From NCBI GenBank assembly GCA_903913215.1, contig CAIWKE010000026.1, positions 1-64,000 on the forward strand: DNA of 64,000 nucleotides, read 5' to 3'. Position numbers and translations under genes: made by a program. The notes beneath the pieces were generated by a model, which saw only the letters and a list, made by a program, of their open reading frames with translations, did not search any database and was not told where the DNA came from. Positions 1 through 10,714 of this stretch are shown here, piece by piece. The DNA is from an uncultured Holophagaceae bacterium. GTDB taxonomy: Bacteria; Acidobacteriota; Holophagae; Holophagales; Holophagaceae. Every line of letters starts with the position of its first letter. Positions within the stretch are counted from its first letter, which is position 1.

Positions 1-27
1 CCAGTATTGACTCGGTCTTATTAATGT

Positions 28-57
28 TGACCGGTCTCTGACCGGTTTATGACCGGT
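28..57. repeat. Three 8-bp direct repeats at one-turn spacing
   Basis: TGACCGGT occurs at 28-35, 39-46 and 50-57, exactly 11 bp apart, so all copies lie on the same face of the helix. A further GACCGGT lies at 460-466, just before the helicase gene. Phased short repeats upstream of a replication gene look like iterons or an operator for an element-encoded protein. The binding partner is unknown; the function is inferred from spacing and position only. Confidence 0.55.
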
Positions 58-105
58 AATGGAAAACCAGAAAACCAACCAAACTACAGGGCATGAATTG
101 CTCGT

Positions 106-156
106 GAGGCAGTCGAACTGCGGTCGGGCTACGCCCTCCCTGCGTCCGACTGCCTC
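106..156. repeat. Inverted repeat able to form a long hairpin
   Basis: GAGGCAGTCG at 106-115 is matched exactly in inverted orientation at 147-156. The 31-nt interior holds a second small stem (GGGC 126-129 with GCCC 133-136). It lies in a gene-free leader. It could be part of a recombination site, a structured leader or an insertion-sequence remnant. It does not carry the RYYYAAC/GTTRRRY ends expected of an attC site. Confidence 0.45.
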
Positions 157-164
157 AAATCTGG

Positions 165-208
165 GGGGTCAGGAGTTTTGTCGCGAAGAGGGGTCAATAG
201 TTTTGTCG
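165..208. repeat. Pair of 19-bp direct repeats, IS21-end-like
   Basis: Two 19-bp copies (165-183 and 190-208) share 17 bases, with pattern GGGGTCA-NN-AGTTTTGTCG, at a 25-bp period. Read on the minus strand they give CAAAACT..TGACCCC repeats close to a TGTCAA start. That style of repeated end resembles IS21-family termini, but no istA or istB gene is present here. From 209 to 523 no convincing gene is visible. Remnant status is an inference. Confidence 0.35.
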
Positions 209-523
209 GTTGACAGTGATGGCATCGACCTGCCTGAAGGGCCTTCCTGAGTGCAGATTATTTGGGCCCATGATGGCGGCGGCGAAAATAAATTTTTCGA
301 AGCATGGTTGAAAGATTTGCTTTAGACCCCTCCGAGGAGCCCTCGGCGGGGCATCCAATGGGCCCTGAATCATGATTTTCACCTTTCCTTGAAGGCCGGA
401 TTTGACCTGCCTCCGAGGACGCATCCCTCATGGACCACTTCGATAAACCTCCTCATAGCGACCGGTGTCTGGGCTTGACCCAGGATGCGACAACCGGGAT
501 GGGGAGGCCTTCGGAGGTCTGAG

Positions 524-2248
524 TTGACTCTAGATAAGTACCAATTTGAACCTGCTGGGGTCTTCATTCTGGATGCCCCTGAAGAACACGCCGAAAAAAT
601 ATCGGACGTCACTAAGTTCGTAGAGGAAAGGGGAGGAAGCTGGAAGTTCTGGCGCGGATCCCTTTCAGTCCACATAGATGGCCAGAAAGCCAATGTGATC
701 ATCTGTAAGCAGATGAAGAAGGAAGCGGAAAATCTTCTACGTACTTTCAACTACATCGTTTCAGTCAAAGATTGGGAAGAGCACACCCCCGAAGAGAAAC
801 AGAAAGCCTTGGCCGGTATCCCAGATTGCATCTATGACCTGACCAAGGACTGGTTGGCCTACGCGACCTATGGGGCGGGGAAGCAACGCCGACTGTTAGT
901 ACGACAATCTTTAGTGGCCAACACTTGGCGCGTAGTTGAAGACCCGATCGGATTCCTTGGAAGCCTTCGCTATGAGGGTGGTCTGGTTCTCGACTACCTT
1001 GATGCCAAACTGGCGGAACTACATCGAGAAGGCGTCACCAGATGGGGCATACATGCCAAGTTGGGGGTGCTGGACTTCACTCGGGCCTTCACCGAGTTTG
1101 ATCTGCCAACCCGCATCCTAGACGATAGGCGCTACTACAAGGAGCTAATCCCCTTCACCAATGACCCCAATACTCCAGCGGAGGCCTACTTCCCTTGTGA
1201 TGGTGGAGGAAATATGGCAGGCACATGGGACGCATGGGCTAGGTTTGAGACGCAGATCCCCCCAGCCCTAATCCCAACTTGGAGGGCGGCAATTCGCGGC
1301 ATCATCGATGCTAGAAACAAAAGCCGCCAGATCATCTATCTTTATGACCAAGGCTACACAGCCAAAAGTCAGGTAGCCTCTGCCATCCATACCGTCATGG
1401 AAGGCCTATCGGCCACGCTAGATGAGGATGCATTAAACTCCGCATTCTGGTTCAGCGGAATATATGGTGCCAGATTTATAAATTTGCCGGATGTAAAGGA
1501 TCAGGAGCTACTAGACAACCCCAAGATAAAGCGAATCACAGGTGGGGATTATTGCCGCCATGAGGGTAAAGGGGACACAGCCTTTGATACTCAACCCAAT
1601 TGCAGACTTATGGCAGAGGCAAACGCTCCGCAGAAGGTGGATATAACGAAACTCTCAGAGCTTCTTCGTTTCCTATTTTTCCCACTCCAGCGTAACGATG
1701 ACCCTGAATTCGTAAAGCCTTTCGTGGTGCAAGATAAGGATGGTAACCCCCTCAGATATGAGTCTGGAATCCGCAAAGGCACTTGGAAATACAAGGGCAA
1801 TCCGCAATACCAGAAAGACCTTATCGTTCAGTTCTGGGACTACATGGTTGTCTGTGAGCCAGATTACAATAGGCTCTGCCCCACTCACGGTGACATAGCT
1901 GCACCCGAAGAAATGCTGGACATGATCGCAGAGAAGTGTGCGACCGGTGAGTCAATCGCATTCTTAGAAATGATTGATAATCTGCTTGAATTTGGGAAGG
2001 ACAAGCGACTCTCAAATTTAGAGCTTCGTGCAATCCTCAAGCATAGTGATATCCCTGAGGATCAATTTACCGACATCCGCAAGAAGCTACTGGATAAGAG
2101 AGGCGTCCGTGACGGCGGAGCCGCCAAGGTCAAGGGGCAGAGATGCCTAATCGGTGTTGGCCTTCGCCCTGGCGTGACCGTCAACATGGGCAATGTGACC
2201 TTCGCCCACCAAGCAATATCCACCTCTCATGAGGACGCGGGTCTATGA
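524..2248 (+). CDS. SF3-type helicase, phage/plasmid replication, degenerate Walker A
   Basis: Probable superfamily 3 (D5/P4-like) replicative helicase of a mobile element, 574 residues. The region after residue 270 follows the SF3 order: a beta-strand and P-loop-like YDQGYTAKS (about 275-282), an acidic strand NLPDVKD (about 320-326), the family signature KRITGGD (about 336-342) and a motif-C-like asparagine in ANAP (about 367-370). The P-loop keeps Lys-Ser but the two usual glycines are Asp and Ala, so ATP binding may be altered. The N-terminal 250 residues carry no primase motif or zinc cluster that I recognise. I chose TTG at 524 because GGAGG sits 6 nt upstream; an in-frame ATG at 485 has no such site. 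The stop overlaps the polymerase start by 4 bp, so translation is probably coupled. Confidence 0.7.
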   Translation: MTLDKYQFEPAGVFILDAPEEHAEKISDVTKFVEERGGSWKFWRGSLSVHIDGQKANVIICKQMKKEAENLLRTFNYIVSVKDWEEHTPEEKQKALAGIPDCIYDLTKDWLAYATYGAGKQRRLLVRQSLVANTWRVVEDPIGFLGSLRYEGGLVLDYLDAKLAELHREGVTRWGIHAKLGVLDFTRAFTEFDLPTRILDDRRYYKELIPFTNDPNTPAEAYFPCDGGGNMAGTWDAWARFETQIPPALIPTWRAAIRGIIDARNKSRQIIYLYDQGYTAKSQVASAIHTVMEGLSATLDEDALNSAFWFSGIYGARFINLPDVKDQELLDNPKIKRITGGDYCRHEGKGDTAFDTQPNCRLMAEANAPQKVDITKLSELLRFLFFPLQRNDDPEFVKPFVVQDKDGNPLRYESGIRKGTWKYKGNPQYQKDLIVQFWDYMVVCEPDYNRLCPTHGDIAAPEEMLDMIAEKCATGESIAFLEMIDNLLEFGKDKRLSNLELRAILKHSDIPEDQFTDIRKKLLDKRGVRDGGAAKVKGQRCLIGVGLRPGVTVNMGNVTFAHQAISTSHEDAGL

Positions 2249-4425
2249 GCCAATTGGGGCCTGTCTCGTTTGATACGGAATTTAATCGGACCAACCAAGA
2301 ATTCCAGAATGTGGTCTGCGGCGTATGCATCGTAGATGAGGTTGAGTTTCGCTACTGGCTATTGGAGGTAGCGGAAAGAGATCGCTTCCATCGGGACTGG
2401 GATCGCTGGATGGCTGAAGGTCGGGCCATCATCTGCTTCAACGCGACAGCGGAAGCCCGAAGCCTTCTAGCACTCGGCTACACCTTCGTGCAGATGTATA
2501 GGTGGATTTGGGTTGACACCTATATTTGGTGGAAAATGTTGGTCCTAAGTCACCCATGCCACCGCTGGGGTGCCAAGTTTGTCACTCGTGATGGCAAGCG
2601 GGTGGCAATCCTGACGACTCCCCCACCTGATGGTGAGCTAGACGAAGACACTTTCACGGAGGATGGCTCCGGTGGGTTGGTGCTCATGAAAGCCAAGGAG
2701 CGCTACAAGGCGCATACAGCCAGTCTAGCGTCAGCCCTGGGGCACTTATTCCAGGTGGATATCAACGAGGAACACAAGGAAGCTATGGTCCATTTGATCC
2801 TTGAGGGTGGCAAGGACTTCACTCCAGAGCAACGTGAGCAGATCCTGGCCTATTGTGCTGAAGATGTGAAGTATCTACGGCCCCTGGCACGAACCTTAGT
2901 GGATGTCGTGAAGCAGGAGACAGGAGGCGCCATCGGTCTGGACCACCTCAAGTACCTTTCTGTCTATTCAGTGTGCAATGCCCAGATTGAAAACAATGGG
3001 ATTCCCCTGGATGTCAAGAAAGCCAAGATGCTATCCAGCAACATACCATTCGCAGAAGATGCCCTCATTTCCGAATGTGTTAAGGCATATCCGTTCTATG
3101 GCAAAGAGAAACTGACCTCAGAGGACAAACGGAGAGGTAAAGTCGGAACCCATAAGTGGGTTGAGAAAAAGGATAAGTTCATGTCCTATATCGATTCACT
3201 CGGTATGCGCGAAGCATGGCCCAAGACCGCCAAAGGTGGTCTTAGGGCGGATGTGGAGACCCTGAAAGATTACAGTGGTGACAAGATACTAGCCACCTAC
3301 CGCACCTGTAAGAAATCCCGCAACAACTTGCGCTACTTTGGGCCCGATAAGTGGAAAAAGATGGAAGGGAATGTTGGGGATGACTCTCGCATACGCCCTG
3401 GTCTTCGTCCCTTCGGGACCGTGACCAGCCGCCACACCCCGCAGCCCAGCAAGGGCTACATTCTCGCCATGTCGACTTGGTTGCGTACTTTGATCGAAAA
3501 GAAGGGCAGTGTGATCCTGTCCTGTGATTACTCCTTCGAGGAAATGGTCCTTCAAGCATGGGCCTCAAATTGCCAGAACCTCATGGACGCATGTCAATCT
3601 GGTGACCCATATTTGTGGCTGGCTCAATACTGTGGTGCCATCAATCCCCTATACCGCAGGACCCCTGAAGGTTATGTCAATGAGCGGGGTGAGGTTCTAG
3701 ACAAGGACGGCCAGAAATCAACTCATGCTATACGAGGCACCTACAAGAGTTTGATGTTGGGCCTAGGCTATGGAATGGGCCCCGAGTCTCTCAGCATCAG
3801 ACTCACGCAGACTCGCATGGCGAACATGCTTACTTCCGATGAGCAGGACGTCATTAGCAAGGCCAGATTTGATTCGGACCCAACGATACAAGCGCAGGCC
3901 AGCGTACTACTGGATCGAGTTCAGATTGTCCCAAATGGCGCTGGGATCCCTGCAGAGAAAAAGGCTGTCACCTATCGCGACTACCACCGCGCCACATTTA
4001 GCCAGTACTGGGATTGGCGTGAGAACTTCGTGAGAGCTTTCAGGGCGCAGGGATGGGCATCAACACCGGATGGATGGTGCGTATTTTCCTGGGTAACAGA
4101 TCAAACAGCGAAGAACTTTTACATCCAGGGGACCGGACAGACCATTTTAAGACGGGCTGTGCTTCGCTGCCTTTTGCGCGGGTTGCGCGTGGCCTCCCCA
4201 TTGCACGATGCCCTGTATGTCGAGTCCACACCCGAAAACCAGCAGGCGGATATGGCGATGCTGGTGGAAGAAATGACCCAGGCGGTAACTGACATCTGCG
4301 GCAGCCCAATCATCAGGGTTGACCCGAAGGTCATCCATACCGACTGGGAGAAGGGGGTTTCCGACTGGACGGCCGACAAACAGGAAAAGGAATTTGCTAA
4401 GCTTTCCAAGTACATGCTTTTTTGA
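2245..4425 (+). CDS. Family A DNA polymerase with 3'-5' exonuclease domain
   Basis: DNA polymerase of the PolA family, 726 residues, phage/plasmid type: it lacks the 5' nuclease domain of host Pol I. Exonuclease motif I is FDTE (10-12) and motif III is YCAED (203-207). At motif II the usual Asp is replaced by Glu (NATAE, 66-70). Polymerase motif A is CDYSFEE with Asp428, motif B is R497..K501..YG509-510, and motif C is LHDAL with His654-Asp655. All three polymerase motifs are therefore intact. The start overlaps the helicase stop (ATGA). Together the two genes form a replication module, but no primase or initiator is visible beside them. Host polA is normally larger and is unlikely to be this gene. 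Confidence 0.9.
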   Translation: MSQLGPVSFDTEFNRTNQEFQNVVCGVCIVDEVEFRYWLLEVAERDRFHRDWDRWMAEGRAIICFNATAEARSLLALGYTFVQMYRWIWVDTYIWWKMLVLSHPCHRWGAKFVTRDGKRVAILTTPPPDGELDEDTFTEDGSGGLVLMKAKERYKAHTASLASALGHLFQVDINEEHKEAMVHLILEGGKDFTPEQREQILAYCAEDVKYLRPLARTLVDVVKQETGGAIGLDHLKYLSVYSVCNAQIENNGIPLDVKKAKMLSSNIPFAEDALISECVKAYPFYGKEKLTSEDKRRGKVGTHKWVEKKDKFMSYIDSLGMREAWPKTAKGGLRADVETLKDYSGDKILATYRTCKKSRNNLRYFGPDKWKKMEGNVGDDSRIRPGLRPFGTVTSRHTPQPSKGYILAMSTWLRTLIEKKGSVILSCDYSFEEMVLQAWASNCQNLMDACQSGDPYLWLAQYCGAINPLYRRTPEGYVNERGEVLDKDGQKSTHAIRGTYKSLMLGLGYGMGPESLSIRLTQTRMANMLTSDEQDVISKARFDSDPTIQAQASVLLDRVQIVPNGAGIPAEKKAVTYRDYHRATFSQYWDWRENFVRAFRAQGWASTPDGWCVFSWVTDQTAKNFYIQGTGQTILRRAVLRCLLRGLRVASPLHDALYVESTPENQQADMAMLVEEMTQAVTDICGSPIIRVDPKVIHTDWEKGVSDWTADKQEKEFAKLSKYMLF

Positions 4426-4448
4426 AACTTGACGAATGGTCGGATATT

Positions 4449-4468
4449 GGGCGGCGTATGCCGCCCTT
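4449..4468 (+). terminator. Hairpin after the polymerase gene
   Basis: GGGCGGC (4449-4455), loop GTAT, then GCCGCCC (4460-4466), followed by only two T residues. It lies 23 bp after the polymerase stop. It is a strong stem but a poor U-tract, so termination may be partial or factor-assisted. Confidence 0.45.
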
Positions 4469-4476
4469 GCCATGCA

Positions 4477-4770
4477 CGGGACAGTACATGGCCGTACTGG
4501 TCCAATTGACTTATTTATTAGACTTATATAAAAAAGGACACAGTACAGGATTTTGTGGGTTGTGTGGAATGTGTCATCTCATCACATCATCCTACTTTTT
4601 TATATCAATCATTTTTTTTGATAAATAATTCAATAAATGGAATGTTATCAACAGAAATGCACATGATGATGATCATCTCCCACGAGACCCATGAATTCTT
4701 GTACTGTGTACTTTTGTAGTTAAGTTATTTGTATGCTTATTTAAGACTAGTACAGCCATGTACGATCCCG
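4477..4770. repeat. 294-bp inverted repeat with AT-rich centre, possible origin
   Basis: Two 91-bp arms (4477-4567 and 4680-4770) align without gaps in inverted orientation. Two blocks are strongly conserved: GTACATGGCYGTACTRGTC (left copy 4484-4502) and an ACACAGTACA block (left copy 4538-4547) that extends to TGGGT and GTGG. The 112-bp centre is very AT-rich and contains TTATCAACA (4645-4653), one base from the DnaA-box consensus. An AT-rich spacer flanked by inverted binding blocks directly after a helicase/polymerase pair suggests a replication origin of the element. Alternatives are a pair of regulatory sites or an old transposon. Confidence 0.5.
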
Positions 4771-4999
4771 TCCATTGAAGGGCCGACACATGATGCCCAC
4801 TGCGTGGGTGGCTACGGTAACTGGCCCCCCAGGGGAGCAGGTCGAATCGGGATTTGGAGACACTCCGCGCTACGGCCCGTAGGCCGCTGCGCCGACCACC
4901 GAGAAGGTCACTGAATCTGCGGCAAAGGGCCGATGCGATCAAGCCTAGTTTGGCCCTAGCCCCTGCGGGGCCTGGGCCAGAGAATCCGATCCATGTTGC
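4771..4999. other. Gene-free spacer with a strong hairpin
   Basis: No convincing reading frame or RNA gene is visible. A stem of 12 bp with a two-base internal mismatch lies at 4952-4978 (GGCCC..GCCCC, TGC loop, GGGGC..GGGCC). It sits just past the stop of the minus-strand gene at 5000 and could end its transcript, although no T-run follows on that strand. Confidence 0.35.
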
Positions 5000-5329
5000 T
5001 TAAGCCCGTAGGATGCGGTCCAGGGCCTCCCCCGAGTCATTATCTGCCCAGATGGTCGACTCCCACTCCCAGGAACGGTTGGTAACTACTGGAGTAGGCT
5101 CTGAGGGGCCATTGTCACCAGTCTTGGTGCCATAGGTCATGCCGCCGTTATCCGAGTTCCGCTCCCCGCTGGATGGTGTCTTAGGCGCAGAACTAGGCGA
5201 AGACTTTGGCGTGGATGCAGATCCACCAGGGATTGCCGTGGGATTGGTCTTCTTCGTGGGCCCCGCACCGGATCTTCCAGATTGGAATGCCTCGGGTGCC
5301 TTCATGAGCAATTTGGATACACGCAGCAT
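5000..5329 (-). CDS. Small protein with Pro/Ser/Thr-rich linker, unknown function
   Basis: Encodes 109 residues. The start is well defined: AGGAGG lies 6 nt upstream of ATG at 5329. The protein has a short basic N-terminus (MLRVSKLLMKAP), a long low-complexity middle rich in Pro, Ser, Thr, Gly and Lys (about residues 18-80), and an acidic C-terminus with WEWESTIWADND. The layout of ordered ends and a flexible linker resembles small DNA-metabolism or scaffold proteins of mobile elements, but no family is recognised. It is divergent to the recombinase and is transcribed towards the polymerase module. Confidence 0.55.
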   Translation of the reverse strand: MLRVSKLLMKAPEAFQSGRSGAGPTKKTNPTAIPGGSASTPKSSPSSAPKTPSSGERNSDNGGMTYGTKTGDNGPSEPTPVVTNRSWEWESTIWADNDSGEALDRILRA

Positions 5330-5477
5330 ATGAGCCTCCTCTATAGCAAAAGGGAAACGCTCCATCTGTTTGCTTCGGGCTTACTCGCAGGGTCCCATCC
5401 GATTTCCGAATGGATGCCACTCAGAGGGCGCTTCCGAAAAATCAGGAAGTCCGCCCCCTCTGGAAGTTCCTTGGCTT

Positions 5478-5625
5478 GAATACGAGTTGACCTCGAAAAG
5501 GAGGCTCTTCGCCTCCCCTCGCAGAGATCTGCACAAAAAGTTGTTCAGTGGCCAGTCTGAATACAGGTTGACCCCACCTTCTGATCAGAAGGTGGCCCAT
5601 GGCTGGGAGGGGGTCAACTCGTATC
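5478..5625. repeat. Repeat cluster with 22-bp perfect palindrome
   Basis: The motif RATACRRGTTGACC occurs three times: direct at 5478-5492 and 5559-5573, and inverted at 5610-5625. Between the last two lies a perfect 22-bp palindrome at 5574-5595 centred on TGATCA. A small hairpin (5500-5505 with 5511-5516) is also present. The cluster is 100-300 bp upstream of the serine recombinase, where a resolution (res) site or operator could lie. Repeat ends with GTTGACCCC also occur in IS21-type elements, so a remnant of such an element is possible. Confidence 0.5.
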
Positions 5626-5726
5626 CGTCAAATCGGGGTATAGACAGGCTTGGCATTTCGATTTCTCTAAGCCTGCTTGATTTCTTTGGCTTTCCTGTGT
5701 CAAGCCAGGGTGCAAAATGATTCTCT

Positions 5727-5755
5727 TGACACTTTCCAATCAGGATCTTATACTT
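5727..5755 (+). promoter_or_regulatory. Near-consensus sigma-70 promoter of the recombinase gene
   Basis: TTGACA (5727-5732) and TATACT (5750-5755) are separated by exactly 17 bp. The expected start of transcription is about 20 bp before the recombinase ATG. The -35 box overlaps CTTGACAC, which has an imperfect inverted partner at 5697-5705 (GTGTTCAAG), so autoregulation by a bound protein is possible. Confidence 0.7.
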
Positions 5756-5782
5756 TGATCTGACACATTGAGGGAGATCATC

Positions 5783-6337
5783 ATGGCGCAGGTCGGATAC
5801 ATCCGGGTTAGCTCAAATGGCCAGAACACCGAGCGCCAGCTTGAGGGGGTGCTCCTGGACGAGACCTTCACGGATAAGGTCAGCGGGAAGTCCCTGGACC
5901 GCCCCGCCCTTCAGGATTTGCTCAGGTATGTTCGGAAGGGAGATGAAGTAATTGTTCACTCCATGGACAGGTTGGCCAGAAACTTGTCCGACCTGCTAAA
6001 GCTGGTCACAAACCTGACCAGCAAGGGGGTCAGGGTGAGCTTCAAGAAGGAATCACTCACCTTCACTGGTGAAGATTCACCGATGGCAACCTTGATGTTG
6101 TCAATTATCGGTGCAGTAGCTTCTTTTGAGCGATCCATGATTCATGAACGCCAGTTGGAAGGTATCGCCATCGCCAAGGCAAAAGGCATTTACAAGGGGG
6201 GAAAGCCCAAGCTCTCCCCTACCCAGGCCGAGCAGCTACGCTGCAGGGCCCAGGCGGGGGAGCCCAAGGCCAAGCTGGCAAGGGAGTACGGCGTCTCCAG
6301 GGAAACCGTCTACAGCTATCTCCGAAGCGCCAGTTGA
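5783..6337 (+). CDS. Serine recombinase, resolvase/invertase (DNA-invertase Pin-like)
   Basis: Site-specific recombinase of the small resolvase/invertase class, 184 residues. The nucleophile is Ser10 in YIRVSS with Arg8 beside it; the catalytic DRLARNL motif holds Asp62, Arg63 and Arg66. The long dimerisation helix follows (about 100-125), and a helix-turn-helix of the resolvase type occupies about 145-183. ATG at 5783 is preceded by AGGGAG; an upstream TTG in frame is less likely. The gene has its own strong promoter. Its stop lies only 24 bp from a truncated attC site, so it may mark the event that broke the cassette array. Its natural target site is not known. Confidence 0.93.
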   Translation: MAQVGYIRVSSNGQNTERQLEGVLLDETFTDKVSGKSLDRPALQDLLRYVRKGDEVIVHSMDRLARNLSDLLKLVTNLTSKGVRVSFKKESLTFTGEDSPMATLMLSIIGAVASFERSMIHERQLEGIAIAKAKGIYKGGKPKLSPTQAEQLRCRAQAGEPKAKLAREYGVSRETVYSYLRSAS

Positions 6338-6360
6338 GCTTTAGGCAATGCAGGCGGGGG

Positions 6361-6383
6361 CCGACTTGAGCGGAGGGTTAGGC
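6361..6383 (-). other. Truncated attC site (R''-L'' half only)
   Basis: On the minus strand the sequence starts GCCTAAC, then CCTCC, then GCTCAAGTCGG. It is the same arrangement as the 5' halves of the two complete attC sites at 7312-7379 and 7883-7983. The expected opposite half ending in GTTAGGC is missing; about 24 bp further on the recombinase gene ends. A degenerate TTGAGC..TTTAGGC lies at 6334-6346 and may be a second relic. This site would have been the 3' end of the cassette encoding the 301-residue protein. Confidence 0.6.
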
Positions 6384-6400
6384 TGTATGACCTATGGAAT

Positions 6401-7306
6401 TCATTGCTCTAGACGACGAAAGACACGCGGTTCACTTCTTTGACTGGTGTCCGTAAGGTTTTCAGCAAGTGGTTGTTCAGTCACTATTAATTCACCATCC
6501 TCATTGAGAACAAAAAAAAGGTCTCTATCGGAAGGACCTGGCCCTGTCCGCATCCACCATCGATTAGTGCCCCATGGGATGAAGGATCCATTTTTCCATA
6601 GAGTTGTTGTTTTGTTAGGCCGTCCAGCCGTTAGCGAAGTCGAGGCGTACCGAATCTCCATTGGTGTTCCTGGGGGTGTCGGCTCGATGTCCATGTTCCA
6701 AGTAGTGCCATGGTTGGGTAGAGACATCCACTTACCAACCAAGGCAGGGGGGGTGAGGTTATGTTTGAAATGAAATTCCAAACGATATGGACCGGGACGA
6801 GGGGTAACTCTTCTATAAATACGAGTCCGCTCTGGTCTTTCTACGACACTTTCAAGTGTAAAAACACCCTCAGTGATTTTTAGTGTGGAATCATCCACGA
6901 GAATGATCTCACCGACTATCCATGCAGAAAAAAAGCCTAAGGACAGGTAGGACCACTGTCGATCCCCCACTTCATTGAAGTGGATGTCGCGTTCTCCGTA
7001 CTCTATCGGGAGCGAGTTGCGTTTTGGAGAAAACACATCCAACGACTGGACTTCGTACAATTTGCGATCAGTAAAATACAAAAAATTGGAGTATTGACGC
7101 TGATTGGGTTCTGAAACGATCCAGGCACCTTGAAGAATTTCAGGTGGGTAGTGAACCCTGTATGATCCTATTTTTTCAGAATACAGTTCAGCCTTTTGAA
7201 GGTGGTCATTGACCTGCGCCTTGCCTGCACTGACTAAAACGAAAAGCAGAATGAAGGTTATGGCAATCTTCATTTTTATTTGCCATTTCGGATGAATAGT
7301 GTCCAT
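6401..7306 (-). CDS. Cassette-encoded secreted protein, unknown function
   Basis: Encodes up to 301 residues. A signal peptide is clear: MKIAIT followed by a hydrophobic stretch ending in SAGKAQ. ATG at 7306 starts 6 bp from the attC core, as is common for cassette genes. A second ATG at 7273 gives a more classical signal peptide, and neither has a good ribosome site. The mature part is rich in Trp and Pro with two similar halves (LQGAWIV.. near residue 60, LVGKWMSL.. near 190). This suggests a duplicated lipocalin-like or META-like fold, but I do not recognise a family. GC is clearly lower than the core genes to the right. Confidence 0.65.
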   Translation of the reverse strand: MDTIHPKWQIKMKIAITFILLFVLVSAGKAQVNDHLQKAELYSEKIGSYRVHYPPEILQGAWIVSEPNQRQYSNFLYFTDRKLYEVQSLDVFSPKRNSLPIEYGERDIHFNEVGDRQWSYLSLGFFSAWIVGEIILVDDSTLKITEGVFTLESVVERPERTRIYRRVTPRPGPYRLEFHFKHNLTPPALVGKWMSLPNHGTTWNMDIEPTPPGTPMEIRYASTSLTAGRPNKTTTLWKNGSFIPWGTNRWWMRTGPGPSDRDLFFVLNEDGELIVTEQPLAENLTDTSQRSEPRVFRRLEQ

Positions 7307-7311
7307 GGAGT

Positions 7312-7379
7312 GCCTAACGGAAGAAGTTAACCGGACCAGGCGCTTGCGCCTGGGTCTGGGTTGAACGGAGGGTTAGAGC
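7312..7379 (-). other. Complete attC site (68 bp)
   Basis: Read on the minus strand: GCTCTAAC (R''), spacer CCTCC, GTTCAACCCAGACC (L''), hairpin tip CCAGGCGCAAGCGCCTGG, GGTCCGGTTAAC (L'), CTTCTTCC and GTTAGGC (R'). L'' and L' pair with single unpaired bases left on one side, the extrahelical bases that define the strand used by integron integrases. It ends the cassette of the 159-residue lipoprotein. The CTAAC/GTTAG core boxes and symmetric L boxes are directly visible. Confidence 0.85.
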
Positions 7380-7397
7380 GCGAAGCGGGCACATGGG

Positions 7398-7877
7398 TTA
7401 ATACCTCAACCTTACCGAATCGGCCGACTCGAAGCTGGATGAATCGATTTCTCCGGGAATGCTGGACTGAAAATCCGCGAAGCCTGACTCCAAAGTGAGT
7501 CGGCCATTCTCGAAGCCCTTAACGCTGCTCAGATGGGAATACATACCGATGAACTGGTTTGACTGGTCGAAAACGAGGAGTCGATTCGTTGCCCGACATG
7601 ACCCGCCCCAGACCGTGCTGAAAAGGACAAGGTGAACGGGTTTGGCTGATTGAGTGATGCCGAGGTATTTGAACTCTTGTTCATGGAACTGGCCCTTGGC
7701 CCACAGCGGAACTTTAGTGGCTTTGAGGCTCTTCCAGAGCGAATGAATCAATGGCTTTGGGCCTATAAACCTGCGAATTGAAGCGCCGTCGCTGCAATCA
7801 GGAACTTGCTGCCCCTGTGCGGGCAGAACCGAACAGCCCAGCAGCCAGAGTGAAGCAACAATTGCGAGAGGGGACAT
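7398..7877 (-). CDS. Cassette-encoded lipoprotein, unknown function
   Basis: Encodes 159 residues. The N-terminus is a lipoprotein signal: MSPLAIVASL then LLGC with the lipidated Cys at about position 15. The mature part has two further Cys residues that could pair and no family that I recognise. The ATG lies 5 bp from the core of the preceding attC site and the gene ends 19 bp before its own attC site. This is the compact layout of an integron gene cassette with no room for a separate promoter. GC is lower than the chromosomal backbone. Confidence 0.7.
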   Translation of the reverse strand: MSPLAIVASLWLLGCSVLPAQGQQVPDCSDGASIRRFIGPKPLIHSLWKSLKATKVPLWAKGQFHEQEFKYLGITQSAKPVHLVLFSTVWGGSCRATNRLLVFDQSNQFIGMYSHLSSVKGFENGRLTLESGFADFQSSIPGEIDSSSFESADSVRLRY

Positions 7878-7882
7878 CGAGC

Positions 7883-7983
7883 GCTCTAACGTAGGAAGCT
7901 AACCGGCCCAACCGTGGACCAGGAGCAGCGGTGATGGAGTGCGTTGTTCACGGTTGGGTCCGGGTTGAGCGGAGGGTTAGGGC
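7883..7983 (-). other. Complete attC site (101 bp)
   Basis: Read on the minus strand: GCCCTAAC (R''), CCTCC, GCTCAACCCGGA (L'') continuing into CCCAACCGTG; a variable end of about 30 nt; CACGGTTGGG, GCCGGTTAGC (L'), TTCCTAC and GTTAGAGC (R'). The arms pair over more than 15 bp with three unpaired bases on one side, the extrahelical bases typical of attC. It ends the cassette of the 173-residue protein. The R''-spacer-L'' block is nearly identical to that of the other sites here, as expected within one array. Confidence 0.87.
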
Positions 7984-7999
7984 GATCAGGCGTAGGGGA

Positions 8000-8521
8000 T
8001 TAATCATTAGGCGAATGATCCCAGGCATACCCATTTCTCTTTGGGAGTAAAAGCATGCCTTCTGATTCGAAGCCACCAACCAGCAGTCGGTAGGGTTTTG
8101 GGCGAGGCGAGCCATAGAAAAGCCCTTGCCCAGCTAGGTCTAGGTATTCAGAAGCAAAGGCGGGCTTGTGAGGTTGATTGCCAGGGAAGGGCCCATTGAA
8201 GACGAGTAGTTGAAACCGCTTGGATGCGGTAACAGGGGCGATTACTACGATGGCGAGATCTTTTTGACCATCACCATTGAAGTCGCCAACCATTAAATAG
8301 GGTTGGTAATTTGGGACAGCTTTCCAGGCGCCACCAATGCCTCGTCGAAGGGCCTGGATTTGCTCTTTGCAGTCGCCACAGTCGGATTCCGTGGCTAGTC
8401 GGAAACCCGTATGACCTTTCAGCCAGGTATCGACAACCTGCTGGTGAGCCGGTTGGAGTTTCTGACCCGTCGGAGTTGCTGCGACGGATAGGACGGCTGA
8501 AAGAAAAAGAGTCGGGATCAT
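8000..8521 (-). CDS. Cassette-encoded secreted FG-GAP-like protein
   Basis: Encodes 173 residues with a signal peptide ending near AATPTG. The middle contains VGDFNGDGQKDLAIVV (about residues 77-92), the Asp-rich calcium-binding loop of FG-GAP/VCBS-type repeats, followed by a strand. Two Cys residues in SDCGDC (about 47-52) could form a disulfide or bind a metal. Such single-repeat proteins are usually exported; a precise role cannot be assigned. The ATG lies 12 bp from a lone recombination core (8533-8541) and the stop 17 bp before the attC site. Gene, core and attC together form one cassette. Confidence 0.7.
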   Translation of the reverse strand: MIPTLFLSAVLSVAATPTGQKLQPAHQQVVDTWLKGHTGFRLATESDCGDCKEQIQALRRGIGGAWKAVPNYQPYLMVGDFNGDGQKDLAIVVIAPVTASKRFQLLVFNGPFPGNQPHKPAFASEYLDLAGQGLFYGSPRPKPYRLLVGGFESEGMLLLPKRNGYAWDHSPND

Positions 8522-8763
8522 GTTGAGGGAGCGCCCCTAACTAGGGATTCTGCGACAGGGAGGTTTGCATAATTGTCGTAGAACCCCGGAAGAGAAACAT
8601 CGGAAATGCTGCCATTCGGATTCTTCCATTCTTGGGTTCTAATTACGCAAGCGTAATGATTATCGGATACAAGGGCATCGAGCGAAATTTTACAGTGCTT
8701 TGGTTTGCCATCCATTCTTGCACCACTTAGACGGCTGATGTCAGTAAACCGAGGTGCTTCCAT
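8518..8763 (-). CDS. Possible small or truncated cassette gene
   Basis: An 81-codon frame from ATG at 8763, with a TTG alternative at 8778. The stop (TGA) overlaps the ATG of the next gene and the frame reads straight through the recombination core at 8533-8541. The translation (GARMDGKPKHC, GFYDNYANLPVAES) looks protein-like but matches nothing I know, and no ribosome site is visible. It may be the 3' end of a cassette gene fused to the core after loss of its attC, or a chance frame. Confidence 0.35.
   Translation of the reverse strand: MEAPRFTDISRLSGARMDGKPKHCKISLDALVSDNHYACVIRTQEWKNPNGSISDVSLPGFYDNYANLPVAESLVRGAPST
8533..8541 (-). other. Isolated integron core site
   Basis: GTTAGGGGC on the minus strand matches the R' core of the neighbouring attC sites and sits 12 bp before the ATG of the first recognisable cassette. 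No L boxes or partner R'' box are found to its right. It could be the recombination point of an attI site or the surviving end of a deleted attC. Confidence 0.5.
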
Positions 8764-8808
8764 CGCATGAAGGGCCAATCTGCTGCGGCAGGCAAGCCAA
8801 GCAGGGGG

Positions 8809-9027
8809 TTACTGAGAGGTTTTGGACCAAGTGGCGATGGTTGTCCAAACAGCAATCCCCACTAAGGCCCCTTCCTTCCGGCGAGGGGCGAGGGCCAGAC
8901 CGATTTCGATGACAGCCACCAAAAGGCATTCGCCAAGTTTTTGAACCAGGGACCATCTTGCAGATCTGCGTAGGGAGGCAGGCCTAGGACTGGCAAGCCA
9001 CCCTTTCTGGGTGGTTTCATTGAAACA
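8809..9027 (-). pseudogene. Open frame without start codon, probable gene remnant
   Basis: A frame of 72 codons is open from 9027 down to TAA at 8809-8811 but has no ATG. The translation has a basic segment (SLRRSARWS), a hydrophobic helix (GECLLVAVIEIGLALAP) and an Arg/Lys cluster followed by another apolar stretch (LVGIAVWTTIATW). This looks like the tail of a small membrane protein. I do not recognise it. It lies between the cassette array and the island boundary. Confidence 0.25.
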
Positions 9028-9116
9028 CTAACCAGGGTGTAAGAAAAAAATGTAGCCAAAATGTAGCATAATAAAAATATAATCAATTAAATATTGAAAA
9101 TAAAGGTTAACACCCC

Positions 9117-9194
9117 GGCAAGATCGTCCGCCGGGCCCTCAAGGCCGAGGCCCTCGGGCAGGATCCCGGGGATCTGAGCACGCTGGCGGATTAG
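9117..9194 (+). pseudogene. 3' remnant of an acyl-CoA synthetase (AMP-forming)
   Basis: Codons from 9117 read GKIVRRALKAEALG then PGDLSTLAD and a stop at 9192-9194. This matches the C-terminal signature of AMP-forming acetyl/acyl-CoA synthetases, where GKI-x-RR carries the catalytic lysine and GDxSTL is the usual tail. A TAA stands at 9108-9110 in the same frame and the DNA to the left is AT-rich. The composition returns to the high-GC backbone exactly here. The rest of the gene is absent, so the island replaced or displaced it. Confidence 0.6.
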
Positions 9195-9313
9195 GCTGGG
9201 GTTTGTACCGCAAGGAAATGGAACTGATCACCACCAGCATTCAGTTCGCCTTGTTTATCGGCGTAGCCGATACCAAGAGGAAACCAAGGCACCAAGAATT
9301 GACCTGATGTCGT

Positions 9314-9341
9314 GCCCCGCATTCCCGAGAGAATGCGGGGC
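9314..9341 (+). terminator. Perfect 11-bp stem-loop, likely terminator
   Basis: GCCCCGCATTC (9314-9324), a 6-nt loop and GAATGCGGGGC (9331-9341), followed by ATTTGGTTTT. It probably ended transcription of the truncated acyl-CoA synthetase gene. A minus-strand frame of unclear status overlaps (9191-9379); otherwise 9195-9481 shows no gene. Confidence 0.6.
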
Positions 9342-9481
9342 ATTTGGTTTTCATGCCTGGTCCGAAAAGCTACGTCCATGAAGCGGTGTCCATCGCGAAA
9401 TCGCCTGCCAAAGTCTGGGGCTTGGCCGAGGTTTATGCCTTGCCGAGCCTCTAGGTTGGCCCGCTCGGGCTACCATCACTG

Positions 9482-10714
9482 ATGCCCCGCCGCCGCCTTG
9501 CCGTCCTCCTCCTCCTGGGTTTCGCCTCGGGGCTGCCGCTCTACCTCACAGGGTCGACGCTGAAGGCCTGGATGACGGATGGGGGTTTGAGCCTGGGCAC
9601 CATCGGACTCTTCAGCCTCGTGAGCCTGCCCTACAGCCTGAAGGTGTTCTGGGCGCCGGTCCTGGACCGCTACGGCATCGCACTCTTCGGGCGGCGCCGG
9701 GCCTGGATGCTTGGCATGCAAGTGCTCATGGCGACGGCTCTGGTGCAGATGGCCTTCAGCCAGCCGCGCCTGGGCCTCACCCGCATCGCGGTCATGGCCT
9801 TCTGTCTGGCCCTCACCAGCGCCACCTTTGACATTGCCGTGGATGCCTGGCGCGCTGAGGCGCTGGACCAGAAGCACCTGGGTCTGGGCAACAGCATCCA
9901 CATCGCGGCCTACCGGGTGGCCATGCTGGTGAGCGGAGGCTTGGCCCTCATCCTTGCCCAGGCTTTCGGCTGGCGCTTCACCTACCTGGCTATGGCGCTG
10001 CTCACGGCCCTGGGCATGGTGGGCACCTGGATGGCCACCAACACGGACGACTTGGCGCCAGCGCCCCGCACCTTCATGGAGGCCGTGACCGGGCCCCTTC
10101 TGGACCTGCTGAAGCGGCCGGGCATCGGCTACTTGCTGGCCTTCGCCGTGTTCTACAAGCTGGGGGACTGGCTGGCGGATTCCATGACCATCCCTTTCCT
10201 GCTGCGGGGCATGGGCTTCACCAAGATGCAGATCGGCACCGTTCAGAAAACCACGGCCATGGTCGCCATCATCATCGGCGGTCTCATCGGGGGCTGGCTG
10301 CTCACCCGCATAAGCCTGCGGAAGGCCCTGTGGATCTGCGCTTTCGTGCAGATGGGCAGCATCCTCGGGTTCTGGGCCATCTCTATGCTGGGTCGTCACC
10401 TGCCTCTGCTGGTGGCCGCTAACACGCTGGAGAACCTGGCCTTCGGCATGGGGGGCAGCGCCTTCGCGGCCCTGCTCATGGGCAGCTGCAATCGCTCCTA
10501 TACCGGCACCCAGTACGCCCTCTTCAGCGCCCTCATGGCGCTGCCCCGCTCCATCTTCTCGGGCCTCACGGGCTTCATGGCCGACTGGTACGGCTGGAAG
10601 CTCTACTTCCCCATCTGCGCCGCCGCCGCCATCCCGGGCATGCTGCTGCTGTTGATGTACAGCCGCTGGGGGCTGCCGGAAGGGGAAGATCTGGGATTGC
10701 CGATCGATCAGTAG
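9482..10714 (+). CDS. AmpG-like major facilitator permease
   Basis: Inner-membrane MFS transporter of the AmpG type, 410 residues, about 12 hydrophobic segments. The first helix, LGFASGLPLYLTGSTL, and the following loop with PYSLKVFWAPVLDRYG match the family's conserved N-terminus. AmpG imports anhydro-muropeptides for cell-wall recycling. In this protein the substrate is inferred from family only, and other AmpG relatives may carry different solutes. The gene stands alone and converges on the rhodanese-rluD-lgt operon. It is the first intact backbone gene to the right of the island. Confidence 0.85.
   Translation: MPRRRLAVLLLLGFASGLPLYLTGSTLKAWMTDGGLSLGTIGLFSLVSLPYSLKVFWAPVLDRYGIALFGRRRAWMLGMQVLMATALVQMAFSQPRLGLTRIAVMAFCLALTSATFDIAVDAWRAEALDQKHLGLGNSIHIAAYRVAMLVSGGLALILAQAFGWRFTYLAMALLTALGMVGTWMATNTDDLAPAPRTFMEAVTGPLLDLLKRPGIGYLLAFAVFYKLGDWLADSMTIPFLLRGMGFTKMQIGTVQKTTAMVAIIIGGLIGGWLLTRISLRKALWICAFVQMGSILGFWAISMLGRHLPLLVAANTLENLAFGMGGSAFAALLMGSCNRSYTGTQYALFSALMALPRSIFSGLTGFMADWYGWKLYFPICAAAAIPGMLLLLMYSRWGLPEGEDLGLPIDQ

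Follow-up and report, generated by a model that had tools for sequence, protein, structure and literature searches.

The window analysed here is a stretch of 64,000 nucleotides whose base 1 is also the first base of its contig (C26), so that the sequence upstream of the gene pair described below ends there. The features relevant to that pair are as follows:

1–216 (no strand assigned): insertion-sequence (IS) end, IS21-like by appearance (TGTCAACCGACAAAACTATTGACCCC...), recognised as a repeat at contig ends
485–2248 (+ strand): divergent SF3 (DUF5906-type) helicase gene, with a probable start at TTG 524 and an alternative start at ATG 485
1346–1369 (+ strand): P-loop DQGYTAKS of the helicase (GxGGxGK[ST] in relatives), located by alignment with 11 phage relatives and by hhalign
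1529–1549 (+ strand): KRITGGD motif of the SF3 core, located by alignment and hhalign
2245–4425 (+ strand): phage-type family A DNA polymerase (PolA) of 726 aa with an N-terminal 3'-5' exonuclease domain, from the open reading frame and from Pfam and PHROG matches
4448–4799 (no strand assigned): imperfect palindrome of 352 nt, rich in GTAC, that follows directly on PolA (z = −6.8)
5768–6337 (+ strand): small serine recombinase of the resolvase/invertase type, a neighbour of the pair, from Pfam and PHROG matches
6401–7306, 7398–7877 and 8000–8521 (− strand): three ORFs split by attC-like repeats, integron-cassette-like

The helicase and PolA genes are a real pair of overlapping genes. The helicase frame encodes 587 aa from ATG 485, the longest frame, and 574 aa from TTG 524, which is preceded by a GGAGGT ribosome-binding site at 511–516. 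Its stop codon (TGA, 2246–2248) and the PolA start codon (ATG, 2245) share the sequence ATGA, confirming the 4 bp overlap described in an earlier note on this DNA. Both frames are intact, with 1313 codons open across the two.

The product of the upstream gene was first assigned by its family matches. Pfam DUF5906 matched residues 292–382 with E = 2.3e-4, below the gathering score, and phage primase/helicase PHROGs matched with E = 4e-7 to 7e-6. An hhalign comparison with a profile of six phage SF3 helicases gave a probability of 95.8% (E = 8e-9) over about 140 residues, and the resemblance to relatives is mainly confined to one core of this length. No Pfam match to D5_N or Primase_Cterm was obtained in the helicase at E ≤ 1, and AlphaFold2 returned no usable model with either one or six sequences (pLDDT about 34). 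Judged from its sequence, the 574-residue protein is a divergent SF3 homologue and not a standard member, because its core matches the SF3 profile while its Walker A loop departs from GxxxxGK[ST]. The profile search that the earlier note had proposed as a check thus placed the protein with SF3, with no D5_N match.

Next we compared the ATP site with those of 11 relatives (from 11 contigs, several of them near-identical), six further SF3 proteins and helicase-like ORFs of the viral contigs L173, L198 and L201. When DQGYTAKS is aligned on GxGGxGK[ST], glycines 1, 4 and 6 are replaced by D, Y and A, and the Lys and Ser are kept, in agreement with the replaced Walker A glycines noted earlier. KRITGGD and the Asn of ANAP are also kept, as had been claimed; this Asn (N367, motif C) and R382 of the 574 residues are invariant in the alignment. 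The acidic strand (Walker B), which the note had counted as kept, reads LPD, against LSE, VND or IEE in the relatives. The RR of the relatives, in the arginine-finger region, is reduced to LR. Both P-loop glycines are retained in every relative examined, the loops of the L173, L198 and L201 ORFs being GVNGCGKS, GLQGCGKT and GIPGAGKN, respectively. No second sequence with a DQGYTAKS-type loop was seen among the relatives examined and 99 related genomes; as far as these sequences go, the P-loop change is private to the window. Sequencing error was rejected as its source because several P-loop codons differ. The earlier note had read the modified ATP site as the mark of an element type. It had also named a normal GxxxxGKS in relatives as the finding that would refute it; all relatives checked have these glycines, so the altered site marks the window sequence and not an element type.

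One reading of this change is that the helicase is decaying, ATP binding having been lost with the glycines and the pair being left as a dead remnant. The retention of both glycines in all relatives examined is in keeping with this, as is a locus that an IS end interrupts and in which no phage partners were detected. However, neither frame is broken, a start codon, a ribosome-binding site and the ATGA overlap are in place, and the catalytic residues of PolA are kept, which makes decay rather unlikely. Furthermore, the P-loop Lys and Ser, the motif C Asn and one Arg remain in the helicase, and loss of ATPase activity is therefore not a given. An Ala before the Lys is also present in active MCM helicases (GDPGxAKSQ), whose P-loop ends in TAKSQ. 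Because of this Ala, and because the Lys-Ser is kept, a weak or altered ATPase would be as likely as none. It is possible, though doubtful, that the protein is an active motor with a lineage-specific, re-shaped nucleotide site of an MCM-like (...TAKSQ) kind. The intact ORF with its Lys and Ser, and the match of TAKSQ to the end of the MCM P-loop, would fit such a motor; the absence of a second sequence with this loop among those examined speaks against it. This reading is limited to the ATP site and can stand alongside the phage origin of the pair argued for below.

The downstream gene product matched phrog_17 with E = 3.5e-34 and Pfam DNA_pol_A with E = 2.3e-7. Its polymerase motifs are intact (D428 in motif A, R497 and K501 in motif B, H654-D655 in motif C), and these residues, like the 3'-5' exonuclease acids D10, E12, E70 and D207, are invariant in six phage-type sequences. 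In a phylogenetic tree, the window PolA groups with those of L173 and Silvanigrella-type phages (support 95/97), apart from host PolA; it forms a long branch (2.14) and is at most 30% identical to its relatives. Pfam, PHROG, the profile comparison and this tree agree on the SF3-type helicase and phage-like family A polymerase named in the earlier note. A phrog_17 search of the phylum gave matches to host PolA everywhere, and a scan of genome contigs for relatives returned only another phage-PolA clade, which is without this helicase. In L201 (5944–8951), an intein-like insertion splits motif B of a phage PolA gene.

Reading RxxxKxxxL in motif B places a Leu at the position of E. coli residue 762. 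A survey of Leu762 phage PolA modules reported them with SF2/SF1 helicases (SNF2, UvrD, RecB-like) and not with SF3 (PMC6302109). The window shares with those modules the Leu at the 762-equivalent position and a PolA near a helicase, but its helicase is SF3, a partner that departs from those the survey described (PMC6302109).

The same two protein families were then found together in tailed phages. Silvanigrella phage MWH-Nonnen-W8red 1 (CP017838.1; host Silvanigrella aquatica) carries both, and in the IMG/VR contigs L166–L172 and L174–L176 the helicase gene precedes that for PolA on the same strand, with 954 to 5415 bases between the open frames. L173 (IMGVR_UViG_3300035396_000245) has a VapE/DUF5906-type helicase and a PolA of the same deep clade as that of the window, joined by the same ATGA overlap; it differs in its GVNGCGKS P-loop and in being a phage contig that carries head and terminase genes. 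A 39.5 kb relative carries terminase, portal, head-protein and exonuclease VIII families and an endolysin, and no primase family was recognised in 17 other ORFs scanned there (weak or short genes could escape). Thus the Silvanigrella phage and L164–L176 resemble the window in that both proteins, a DUF5906-type SF3 helicase and a family A polymerase, belong to the same families as its own. They differ in that the window PolA is at most 30% identical to theirs and the helicase is matched in the core only, and in having canonical GxGGxGK[ST] where the window has DQGYTAKS. Their two genes are also usually 1–5 kb apart, on contigs with phage structural genes.

The survey for the same pair that the earlier note had suggested therefore succeeded in tailed-phage contigs and gave nothing in 99 related genomes, genus to phylum, 46 of them of the same genus; none was found in the plasmids searched. 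Single-sequence searches of viral contigs, phages, plasmids and about 100 genomes yielded only one phage and one weak helicase match of use, and a two-sequence PolA profile retrieved no relatives. A literature search on Geothrix prophages and the Silvanigrella phage yielded nothing usable.

The pair lies in a low-GC island: bases 1 to ~9400 are mostly 46–56% GC, against ~66% beyond. The pair itself has 51–53% GC against the ~66% of the backbone, and a GC3 of 0.56–0.62 against 0.90 in one host gene. The island, at the contig end, holds the IS end, the pair, the palindrome, the resolvase and the integron-like cassettes. Bases 76–215, a 140-base element end, recur at the end of contig C11 and the start of contig C13, and the contig break upstream of the pair is explained by this IS end being shared by three contig ends. 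Within the IS-end region, TGACCGGT occurs three times in 31 bases (28–58). The earlier statement that no primase or initiator is visible applies to the sequence from contig base 1, just upstream of the pair, onward; within it, no primase was recognised beside the pair. A search for RNA families gave nothing credible in 1–9600.

The pair is probably a DNA replication module of phage origin. Most likely it was captured as a fragment from, or is what remains of, a prophage with distant kinship to MWH-Nonnen-W8red 1 and its IMG/VR relatives. We favour this explanation because the helicase groups with phage SF3 proteins and PolA with phage PolA, apart from host PolA; because the same families recur in the same order and strand in L166–L172 and L174–L176, with the ATGA overlap in L173; because the 39.5 kb relative carries phage genes; because the pair is absent from the 99 related genomes and is low in GC and GC3; and because both frames are open with the polymerase motif residues kept. 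Phage origin rests on homology, since the surroundings of the pair, on a contig that ends just upstream, yielded no recognisable phage structural gene, and the genome has no terminase match in a search with the phrog_2 family. Against it stand the long PolA branch, the core-only helicase match, the lack of a usable fold model and the cut-off upstream context. In such a module, the upstream gene would supply an SF3-type motor, by its family presumably a hexamer, to open and unwind the DNA. The ATGA overlap probably couples translation of PolA to that of the helicase, and the downstream gene, with its catalytic residues in place, would provide a family A polymerase with proofreading for copying the strand that the motor exposes. 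Priming might fall to a transcript, to the primase of the host, to some factor past the end of the contig or to the unassigned first 240 residues of the helicase.

Among systems tested biochemically, the closest analogue of the pair is CCPol-MP-Cch2 of SCCmec, a replication module that joins a family A polymerase to a helicase related to D5 and has its origin just downstream (PMC7581432). The two are alike, by gene families, in combining such a polymerase and helicase on a mobile element without a classical primase (PMC7581432), and the pair may work in an analogous way. They differ in that SCCmec has a small MP gene, a D5_N/Primase_Cterm helicase and the reversed gene order; because the pair has neither an MP gene nor a match to D5_N, it is not counted as an SCCmec-type member. 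We also considered that it might serve to replicate an integrative element that is not a phage and works like SCCmec pattern 2, in which the D5/SF3-type helicase would open a nearby origin (perhaps 4448–4799) and PolA would copy, and prime with a partner, the excised element. The tested SCCmec arrangement, in which a helicase of the D5_N/Primase_Cterm type accompanies the family A polymerase and the origin lies just downstream (PMC7581432), lends this some plausibility, as do the structured palindrome directly after PolA, followed by a serine recombinase, and the lack of a phrog_2 terminase. The palindrome contains 7 GTAC against 1.4 expected and is a candidate origin or other structured site; it is all that is seen downstream where an SCCmec-type module would have an iteron origin bound by its helicase. 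However, the closest relatives of both proteins lie in tailed-phage contigs, no MP-like gene lies between the pair, the helicase gives no D5_N match, the gene order is the reverse of that in SCCmec, and the recombinase is of the small resolvase type and not a large serine recombinase. A non-phage integrative element is thus improbable. Still less probable, to the point of being a slim chance, is that pair and palindrome are a self-sufficient module of an uncharacterised element, with an SF3 motor on an MCM-like P-loop (TAKSQ) and a coupled PolA without a classical primase.

The suggestion that the locus marks a little-known element type was not upheld: because the same pair recurs in tailed-phage contigs and one named phage, and a D5-type helicase/PolA module has been studied in SCCmec (PMC7581432), it is not a new element type. 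It is a genuine, divergent phage-type replication pair of an ordinary kind, with the P-loop change as its one odd point. With the pair, a sparsely sampled phage module (SF3 motor and Leu762-type PolA, with no recognised primase) reaches one more host lineage, and there is now a natural SF3-type motor sequence without P-loop glycines that are usually regarded as essential. Were the motor active, it could show which parts of the Walker A loop a helicase of this kind can do without; were it inactive, it would be an ordinary remnant.

Beyond the palindrome, the integron-like cassettes are accompanied by no integron integrase match reaching the cut-off in the genome. Their attC-like sites read GCCTAAC...GTTAGAGC at 7312–7380 and CTCTAAC...GTTAGGGC at 7886–7984, and a half site lies near 6341–6385. 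Ahead of the resolvase gene, at 5726–5754, is a promoter-like TTGACA-17-TATACT, near-consensus and sigma-70-like.
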